From positions 1-24,328 of the IMG/VR virus record IMGVR_UViG_3300044712_002655: 24,328 nt of DNA. One strand, given 5' to 3'. Below the pieces are notes generated by a model. It was not told where the DNA came from and did no database searches. It saw only the letters and a program-made list of their open reading frames with translations. Position 1 is the stretch's first letter. The number at the start of each line of letters is the position of its first letter. Source of the DNA: a virus. This document shows positions 22,395 to 24,023 of the stretch, in pieces. A program made the translations under genes and the position numbers.

Positions 22395-22580
22395 TCAACC
22401 CGCTCGGTGCTTGCACGTCCTACACGGGGCGTCTGTCACCGCACCCTTCGGGATCCGGACGATCCCGCCGAACTTCACGGAGGGAACCTCCCCGCTCTTC
22501 ACCTTGCGCGCCATCGTGCGCAGGCTGACCCGCAACAAGTCAGCCGCTTCCTTCGGGGTCAGGTACTCTGGTTCCGGCAT
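22395..22580 (-). CDS. Small helix-turn-helix DNA-binding protein, excisionase-like
   Basis: A 61-residue protein, MPEPEYLTPKEAADLLRVSL, then RTMARKVKSGEVPSVKFGGI(VRIPKG). The 'LT..EAA.LL.VS..T....V..G..P..K.G...RIP' pattern is the HTH_17 excisionase/MerR-like domain: helix-turn-helix followed by a short wing. The C-terminal tail has CRTCKHRAG, an unusual cysteine pair. It may act in recombination directionality, but with no integrase in view a transcriptional role at the nearby late promoter is just as plausible. GGAG lies 5 bases before ATG 22580, which overlaps the preceding gene by 22 bases. Confidence 0.75.
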   Translation of the reverse strand: MPEPEYLTPKEAADLLRVSLRTMARKVKSGEVPSVKFGGIVRIPKGAVTDAPCRTCKHRAG

Positions 22581-22957
22581 AGTGTCTCCTGGGGGATGCG
22601 GGGTTCTCGTGGCTGTAACAGTCCCTCATCTCGGAGCTTCATGGCCAGCTTCCCCGTGGCCCGCTGTAGTCGGGAGTACACCCGGCTCGGGTGCCGGCGC
22701 CATCGGGCGGCGATGTCAATCACCGGTAGAGCCTCGAGGTAGTACAGCGCCAGGAGTTCGCGCTCGGGGGCGGTCAGCTGATGGAGCGCGCGCCAGATCG
22801 CCCAGAGGGTCAGGACCAGGTCGAGCTGATCGCGGGCGCCTCCGGGGTGGCCGGGGACCAGGGCGGTTTCCGGGGTGGGCCAGACGGACCGCACCCCGTC
22901 GGACTTCACGGCCCGGGCGTACCAGTGCAGGGCCGACCCAACGCTGCGGAAGGTCAT
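22559..22957 (-). CDS. Sigma-70 region 4-like phage regulator, late-gene activator candidate
   Basis: A 132-residue protein. Residues about 62-105 (TAPERELLALYYLEALPVID, then IAARWRRHPSRVYSRLQRAT) have the sigma region 4 / helix-turn-helix pattern: 'L...ER..L.L.Y.E.....DIA......S.V...L..A...L'. The N-terminal 60 residues (SVGSALHWYARAVKSDGVRS) show no known domain. Proteins of this build (RinA/ArpU-like or Q-position regulators) often sit just before the terminase genes of phages and control late transcription. ATG at 22957 follows the replication gene by 7 bases. It would be expressed with the replication gene and then act on the promoter about 230 bases downstream of its stop. Target is inferred. 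Confidence 0.7.
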   Translation of the reverse strand: MTFRSVGSALHWYARAVKSDGVRSVWPTPETALVPGHPGGARDQLDLVLTLWAIWRALHQLTAPERELLALYYLEALPVIDIAARWRRHPSRVYSRLQRATGKLAMKLRDEGLLQPREPRIPQETLCRNQST

Positions 22958-22964
22958 GGCCGCC

Positions 22965-24023
22965 TCACGAGAAGGCGGGCTCGTCCGCGGTGGACGACGG
23001 CCCGGCTCCGATGGTCCGCATCACGTCCCCCAGGCACTGCATGTTCGGGGTCGCCCGCTTTCGCCGTTCGTGCGCCTCCAGGGAGAGGGTCAGGTGGAGC
23101 TCCGCATGCTCCCGGGTGATCGCCGTCTGCATCCAGGCCCACCGGCCGGGGTGGTTGATCGGCTCCTGCTCTCCGGCATCCCGGAGCCGGCGGAGGAGTT
23201 GGAGGGCGACCGTCACCGGGAGCTTCCCCCCCACCATCCGCTGGAGGCAGGCCCAGGGGTTGAACCGGTCCCCGTCCCGGACAACCTGCCGTTCGATGTC
23301 GGCAATGATCCGGGAGGCCCGGGCCTTCTCCTCGTCCGTCATGGTGGTCGTCGGGCTCGACTCGGTCCCCTCGGCCCCGTCCCCTCCCCCGGACCCCTGG
23401 TCGCCGGAGGCGCTGCCGGCAGGCCGGTCGGGTCGGGAAGTAGTTACTACGGGTTGGGTTGGGTTGGGTCCGGGGCTGGTGGCCTGCTGGTGAGGCCTGC
23501 TGGTGGCCTGCTGGTCGTCTGCTGGTGAGTGGTCACCAGCAGGCCGCTGGTCGTCTGCTGGTGACTCTGCTGGTGGGGCCGGTCGCTCTAAGGAAGCACC
23601 ATCACCAGCGGACGCACCAGCAGGCTGCTGGTTGGCTGCTGGTGCGTCCGCTGGTGCGAACTTTCCTCCGACACGCGCCGCATGTGACGCCCGCGCCTTT
23701 CCAGCTGTGGACTTAGCTTGCTTCAGTGCCTTTTGCTGATGGCTCACAACATCGCTGGCCGGCTGATAGTCGTGGTAGTCGTGGACACGATAACCTCCCT
23801 CGACTCTTTCCCACAGCCCGACATCGAGCAGCCTCATGGCACTGCGGCGAGGATAGGGGGTCCCAGGGGCCAGAGATGCTAGGGAGCTATCTGGGATGTA
23901 TCCGTCGGTTAGGTAGGCGTTGCAGTAACACAAACCAGACAAAAAGAGATCTCTTGCCAGCGGCCCCGCAGCGATCGCTTTGGGGTGGTGCGGGAAGCGG
24001 TCGTCAATCCGTACCCAGGCCAT
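22965..24023 (-). CDS. Replication-initiator-like protein, lambda O-like architecture
   Basis: A 352-residue protein in three parts. Residues 1-90 (MAWVRIDDRFPHHPKAIAAG and RRSAMRLLDVGLWERVEGGY(RVHDYHDYQP)) are the winged-helix type N-terminal domain of phage replication proteins. Residues 91-225 form a polar, Pro/Ala/Gln/Asp-rich linker; its codons 123-183 carry the CTGCTGGT DNA repeats. Residues 226-352 are helical (DEEKARASRIIADIERQVVR; FNPWACLQRMVGGKLPVTVA; HPGRWAWMQTAITREHAELH), a likely partner-binding part that would recruit helicase or loader. GGGGAG precedes ATG 24023 by 5 bases. The arrangement (binding domain, repeat-bearing linker, C-terminal contact domain) parallels lambda O. 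No ATPase motif is seen, so it is not a DnaC- or DnaB-type enzyme. Confidence 0.72.
   Translation of the reverse strand: MAWVRIDDRFPHHPKAIAAGPLARDLFLSGLCYCNAYLTDGYIPDSSLASLAPGTPYPRRSAMRLLDVGLWERVEGGYRVHDYHDYQPASDVVSHQQKALKQAKSTAGKARASHAARVGGKFAPADAPAANQQPAGASAGDGASLERPAPPAESPADDQRPAGDHSPADDQQATSRPHQQATSPGPNPTQPVVTTSRPDRPAGSASGDQGSGGGDGAEGTESSPTTTMTDEEKARASRIIADIERQVVRDGDRFNPWACLQRMVGGKLPVTVALQLLRRLRDAGEQEPINHPGRWAWMQTAITREHAELHLTLSLEAHERRKRATPNMQCLGDVMRTIGAGPSSTADEPAFS
23451..23468 (+). other. G-quadruplex motif beside the repeat array
   Basis: GGGTTGGGTTGGGTTGGG on the + strand: four runs of three G with two-base loops, a perfect intramolecular quadruplex consensus. It is inside the replication gene (coding PNPTQP on the minus strand) and 7 bases from the first GCTGGT repeat. 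The interrupted dyad GTAGT-T-ACTAC (23440-23450) lies immediately beside it. Confidence 0.5.
23475..23655. repeat. Iteron-like CTGCTGGT array, putative origin of replication
   Basis: Fourteen GCTGGT cores in 181 bp. Eleven are on the + strand, starting at 23475, 23486, 23499, 23510, 23521, 23546, 23557, 23569, 23627, 23638 and 23650. Three are on the minus strand, at 23535, 23604 and 23616. Ten belong to the full octamer CTGCTGGT. Neighbouring + strand copies are mostly 11-13 bp apart, close to one helical turn, and fall in all three reading frames, so the periodicity is of DNA and not a peptide repeat. The array lies in the linker of the replication gene. Confidence 0.65.
23519..23542. repeat. 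10-bp inverted repeat within the iteron array
   Basis: CTGCTGGTGA (23519-23528) and TCACCAGCAG (23533-23542) are perfect reverse complements with a 4-base loop. The structure places two octamers head to head and could form a short hairpin when strands separate. Confidence 0.6.
23603..23656. repeat. 21-bp perfect inverted repeat within the iteron array
   Basis: Positions 23603-23623 and 23636-23656 are perfect reverse complements, separated by 12 bases (23624-23635) that themselves contain another CTGCTGGT copy. Each arm contains two GCTGGT cores 12 bp apart. A hairpin or cruciform of this size within coding sequence is unlikely by chance. Confidence 0.7.

Follow-up and report, generated by a model that had tools for sequence, protein, structure and literature searches.

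An iteron-like repeat array within a phage replication initiator gene as its very probable origin, with a layout recurring across the initiator family

The window, a GC-rich virus record of 24 kb, carries a gene for a replication initiator with a repeat array in its middle. The gene and the features within it are as follows.

22965–24023, − strand: replication initiator gene (352 aa; PHROG and tblastn) with an N-terminal winged helix, a low-complexity linker and a C-terminal domain
23694–24023, − strand: predicted N-terminal DNA-binding domain, residues 1–110 (AlphaFold2, VIA, BFVD)
23475–23655, both strands: iteron-like array of 14 GCTGGT cores, 11 of them on + and 3 on −, with centres 11–14 bp apart except at one 35-bp gap; period ~11.75 bp
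23451–23474, − (coding) strand: polar C-rich tract CCCGGACCCAACCCAACCCAACCC, seen in the sequence and at the same place family-wide (78/91 loci)
23451–23475, + strand: G-quadruplex-type sequence GGGTTGGGTTGGGTTGGGTCCGGGG (sequence pattern)
23440–23450, no strand assigned: AT-rich perfect palindrome GTAGTTACTAC of 11 bp abutting the C-rich tract, a weak equivalent to the AT-rich or hairpin element that relatives carry
22965–23352, − strand: C-terminal part, likely for helicase/primase recruitment by analogy with pSK41 Rep (PMC5703833)

Directly after the initiator gene and before the terminase genes lies a small ORF (22559–22957, − strand) with a sigma-70 region 4 (PF08281).

Profile searches matched the gene to PHROG 2447 (E 7.1e-27, residues 1–230) and to PHROG 3926 (E 9e-22), both annotated as "replication initiation protein". 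By profile and tblastn, it belongs to the PHROG 2447 replication initiation family and groups with the PHROG 2447/3926 initiators of actinophages. Searching with the protein by tblastn returned 265 phage records, many annotated as replication initiation protein or RepA-like, from Mycobacterium, Gordonia, Propionibacterium, Arthrobacter, and Microbacterium phages; the best matches listed shared ~35% identity and were confined to the first 110–120 residues. The N-terminal domain was modeled as a winged helix (AlphaFold2, pLDDT 94) from an alignment that left out rows from annotated phage records. Its VIA-align matches included winged helices of ORC/Cdc6, the RepA_N initiators 4pt7/5kbj (Z 7.1, RMSD 3.0 over 82 residues), with which other winged helices tied, and the DnaD N-terminal domain (2vn2/2v79, Z 6.2); nearly all scores were below Z 8 and may reflect a common arrangement only. 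BFVD matches comprised replisome organizers, including DnaD-like ones of phages, and actinophage HTH proteins. We treat the domain as a predicted winged helix that may resemble those of RepA_N/DnaD initiators. A PDB sequence search with the profile of this domain gave no match, NCBIfam held nothing relevant to the initiator, and Pfam at E ≤ 0.1 yielded no RepA_N (PF06970) match. The linker that follows is flexible, of low complexity, and rich in proline, glutamine, and alanine.

Recounting confirmed the array as first described in an earlier note: 14 GCTGGT cores within 181 bp, ten of them full CTGCTGGT octamers, with + strand spacings of 11, 13, 11, 11, 25, 11, 12, 58, 11, and 12 bp and with cores in all three codon phases and on both strands. 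Across the whole window, CTGCTGGT occurred 13 times, against a mean of 0.61 and a maximum of 4 in dinucleotide shuffles, and self-matches of the array at lags of 11–13 bp numbered 35, against a mean of 2.2. The cores had been described as keeping helical phase. A period of ~11.75 bp fits all 14 core centres (phase coherence 0.93), those of either strand and those on the two sides of the 35-bp gap alike, whereas 10.5 bp fits poorly (0.14). The repeat distance slightly exceeds one helical turn, and the array is regular without being strictly in helical phase. A larger unit is nearly duplicated within it (23505–23528 and 23542–23564), and the one-base difference reported between the copies is an indel. 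Part of the array was therefore built by duplication.

Further elements adjoin the array at 23440–23474 and were absent from the earlier description. The C-rich tract is modestly unusual given the protein it encodes (44/2000 shuffles), G-quadruplex-type runs are also found in other parts of this GC-rich record, and the palindrome GTAGTTACTAC is short, with arms of 5 bp. Just beyond the palindrome, at 23425–23437, the coding strand holds a second short C-rich stretch, CCCGACCCGACC. With its repeats, the C-rich tract at 23451–23474 and, in weak form, the palindrome at 23440–23450, the window has every part of the layout found in the relatives.

We gathered relatives among viral and genome contigs and annotated phages, using two sub-alignments for the profile scans, and reduced them to 93 non-redundant genes. 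In the 300 bp following the N-terminal domain, self-matches were strongly enriched at lags of 5, 6, 10–12, 15, 22–24, and 33–36 bp, which neighbouring stretches lacked, and two elements explain this: iteron-like repeats and a C-rich tract. Over the iteron region, which precedes the tract, of 78 loci, lags of 11 and 12 bp accumulated 272 and 254 self-matches and lags of 10 and 13 bp only 9 and 13; controls gave 17 and 45. Multiples recurred at 22–24, 33–36, and 44–45 bp. The tract, of the form (CCCRW[N])n and scored at three or more CCC runs, was found on the coding strand in 78/91 loci, compared with 4/91 on the other strand and 1–8/91 in the flanks. Its CCC runs step by 5 or 6 bp, mostly as CCCGA, CCCGT, CCCGTA, CCCAT, or CCCAA, and the G-rich strand carried a G-quadruplex-type pattern in 70/92 loci (3–5 in controls). 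After the tract, AT content peaked at a family mean of 58% over the first 10 bp and then 50%, compared with ~33%, and hairpins with stems of at least 8 bp followed in 23/78 loci (0–2 in controls taken from outside the repeats). Among these 78 loci, perfect hairpins in the first 50 bp after the tract carried recurring loops such as CTAACGG, CTACGG, and CTAAAG; such hairpins are possibly a signal for single-strand priming or loading.

Exceptions exist for each element. The C-rich tract was missing in 13/91 loci. At least two relatives (L188 and L212) instead carry tandem 6-bp CAGATA repeats after the iterons, which indicates that C runs are not strictly required. Some relatives, e.g. L146, lack clear iterons, although homologues without a linker array, which would speak against an origin at this place, were not the rule. 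Scanning for CCCGTA repeats mostly recovered low-complexity contigs, together with several isolated arrays in initiator-like genes that had repeats upstream. Long low-complexity runs of CCCGTA, CCCGGA, or CCCGTC in L360, L364, L386, L389, L396, and other IMG/VR loci may be non-viral contamination. GC skew is weak evidence in phages; a skew switch had been suggested for the array, and the cumulative extremes in the complete genomes of four phages (B22, 1191A, Dardanus, and Jinkies) did not fall at the site, so skew is uninformative on origin position. Judged by sequence comparison, this layout recurs in a large, little-studied initiator family, sampled here in ~90 non-redundant homologues, each time with a repeat word of its own.

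Repeated DNA could also arise from repeated amino acids, and a proline/glutamine/alanine-rich linker of low complexity is where this would be expected: synonymous-codon shuffles of the window gene, which leave the protein unchanged, by themselves gave a mean of 4.8 cores. None of 5000 shuffles reached the observed 14 (maximum 11), however, and the array thus exceeds what the encoded protein demands. The repeats also lie in all three frames and on both strands, and a spacing of 11 bp is as common as one of 12. The same held among relatives, where synonymous shuffles of each gene predicted 104 matches at iteron lags and 522 were observed; the iteron-lag excess was significant (p ≤ 0.05) in 44/67 loci, and the C-rich tract was longer than expected (p ≤ 0.05) in 41/70. 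In eight loci (L022, L145, L157, L261, L286, L288, L305, and L306), the coding sequence ends ahead of the tract, leaving the tract non-coding and, in most of these loci, part or all of the array as well; in one of these, Propionibacterium phage B22 (L145), the repeats continue through the stop codon. A further relative (L174/L471) has a C-rich tract and the same core as the window, yet its linker and C-terminus look unrelated. As the earlier note had anticipated, the repeats are kept as DNA while the linker varies. A protein-repeat explanation is very unlikely, and we rejected it on the basis of the synonymous shuffles and the arrays beyond the stop codon. Taken at the level of sequence, the comparisons show that the parts, their order, and their polarity are conserved as DNA, together with homology of the initiator.

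The layout is conserved, but the repeat word is not. The nearest relatives of the window carry GTAAC (L153) and GTCAC (L009) cores, and GTAAC, GAAC, GCAA, GTCAC, and GATTC cores were found at the same place across relatives. With core classes assigned by simple count, the seven classes required 30 changes on the tree, compared with 34 when labels were shuffled, on a tree whose few columns give low branch support. The CTGCTGGT unit had been put forward as novel; its sequence is indeed new as a repeat word, but comparison with relatives makes it one among many interchangeable cores rather than a family-wide unit. A winged helix reads DNA through the region of helix 2, the loop, and helix 3, which here spans residues 45–64. 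Per-column variability of the N-terminal domain was highest in this region, on the exposed face in the case of helix 3.

In four relatives (L144, L161, L235, and L238), iteron words seemingly lie inside the coding region of the N-terminal domain itself, where they appear as MAN or EAN repeats in a variable segment. The core of L144 there is ATGGCAAA, translated as MAN repeats, and in L161 the EAN repeats of a loop were judged from the protein. The window's core also appears outside the family: an AT-rich phage (L472, IMG/VR 3300009143_000001, ~480–1020, − strand) has CACCAGCAGACCACCAGCAGACC repeats at 11-bp spacing in the middle of a 329-codon frame, and its replication protein looks different, placing the core in an apparently unrelated initiator.

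Two further explanations were weighed. Three of the cores, at 23475, 23499, and 23569, form GCTGGTGG, which is the E. coli Chi octamer, and the array might accordingly be read as a recombination signal. These are only 3 of the 14, though, and cores occur in both orientations; a signal of E. coli need not hold for this GC-rich phage. Because the cores at this position differ widely among relatives, we reject this reading and give it next to no weight. The array could instead be a neutral product of tandem duplication or slippage without function, as the duplicated larger unit would allow. Against this, inverted copies stay in register with the others, and dozens of diverged homologues share the position, the spacing, and the adjoining parts; a functionless product is extremely unlikely.

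On the strength of these comparisons, the array, which lies within the linker-coding portion of the initiator's own gene, very probably serves a tailed phage as its initiator-bound replication origin. The order of parts, from initiator through repeats and polar tract to an AT-rich/hairpin element, fits an origin opened by a repeat-bound initiator that recruits helicase or primase. Iterons also serve plasmid copy control, and the array might be an initiator-binding site for autoregulation, copy control, or incompatibility (handcuffing or parS-like) rather than a site of DNA opening. Cores that change with hardly any constraint across the tree would suit incompatibility, and direct-repeat parS arrays adjoin repA in some mycobacteriophages (PMC7157519). 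Yet the array lies inside or just after the coding region and not at a promoter, and a polar C-rich tract with its AT peak and hairpin consistently follows it, a layout suited to strand opening; we consider a purely regulatory or partitioning role unlikely.

If the array is an origin, the N-terminal winged helix of each initiator protomer would bind a GCTGGT-type core, whichever way that core is oriented. Protomers spaced ~11.7 bp apart would then build a nucleoprotein filament. This filament would end at the polar C-rich tract and the AT-rich palindrome or hairpin, where the duplex would open. The G-rich strand, folded or held single-stranded, might help to keep the other strand free, and the C-terminal domain could then recruit helicase or primase, as in pSK41 Rep and lambda O. 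Candidate roles of the C-rich tract are quadruplex formation, single-strand recognition in 5–6-nt steps, and helicase placement.

An origin embedded in an initiator gene is already known. In the RepA_N plasmid replicons of staphylococci (pSK41, pTZ2162), a DnaD-like winged helix binds Rep boxes located centrally in rep; in pSK41 Rep, the N-terminal domain binds these mid-gene boxes, the linker is dispensable, and the C-terminus binds primase (PMC5703833). The window resembles them in repeat position only, its repeats being likewise central in the gene, a placement shared family-wide; its N-terminal model aligns to 4pt7/5kbj with the modest score given above, which other winged helices tie. It differs in the lack of a Pfam RepA_N match and in an array of 14 GC-rich cores. 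RepA_N replicons such as pSK41 are the best functional parallel. In ori-lambda, iterons in the middle of gene O are followed by an AT-rich tract (PMC7466680), a likeness to the window of layout only: lambda iterons are annotated as 18 bp at 20–24 bp spacing, compared with cores of 6–8 bp at ~11.7 bp here, the lambda stretch examined shows no C-rich tract of the family's kind, and the window initiator has no detectable protein similarity to lambda O (hhalign probability 0.1%), to which it could be only very remotely related. Our best reading, by analogy, is that the window system would work like pSK41 RepA_N and lambda O, a functional likeness that carries no claim of homology. The earlier proposal of an embedded, initiator-bound origin thus gained strong comparative support, but its description as an independent solution to that of lambda overstated the novelty, because Rep boxes inside the linker part of rep were known before from pSK41-type RepA_N plasmids (PMC5703833).

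In open-licence papers, we found no origin described for the PHROG 2447/3926 family and no relevant account of phage origins that carry C-rich or G-quadruplex elements. For mycobacteriophage RepA, possibly of another family, one study reported no repeats in the stretch it searched and did no more than suggest an origin inside or beside repA (PMC7157519). What is new here are the repeat words, the C-rich tract, and the rapid core turnover. We tentatively propose, with a little more doubt than belief, that they mark an undescribed, family-wide type of origin combining regular iterons of freely switching words with a strand-polar C-rich tract in 5–6-bp steps and a hairpin, in which the C-rich/G-rich tract (G-quadruplex-capable in about three-quarters of members) would serve as a strand-opening or helicase-loading element in GC-rich phages.

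To our knowledge, the origins of most Actinobacteria phages are unmapped. The layout supplies a sequence rule that predicts an origin in dozens of phages, including the cultured Propionibacterium phage B22, Arthrobacter phage 1191A, and Gordonia phage Murp. It also brings to light, in the polar C-rich tract, a strongly conserved element that calls for an explanation. Near-random turnover of repeat words between close relatives, paired with highly variable recognition residues, makes this family a natural system for studying how initiator and origin alter their specificity together.
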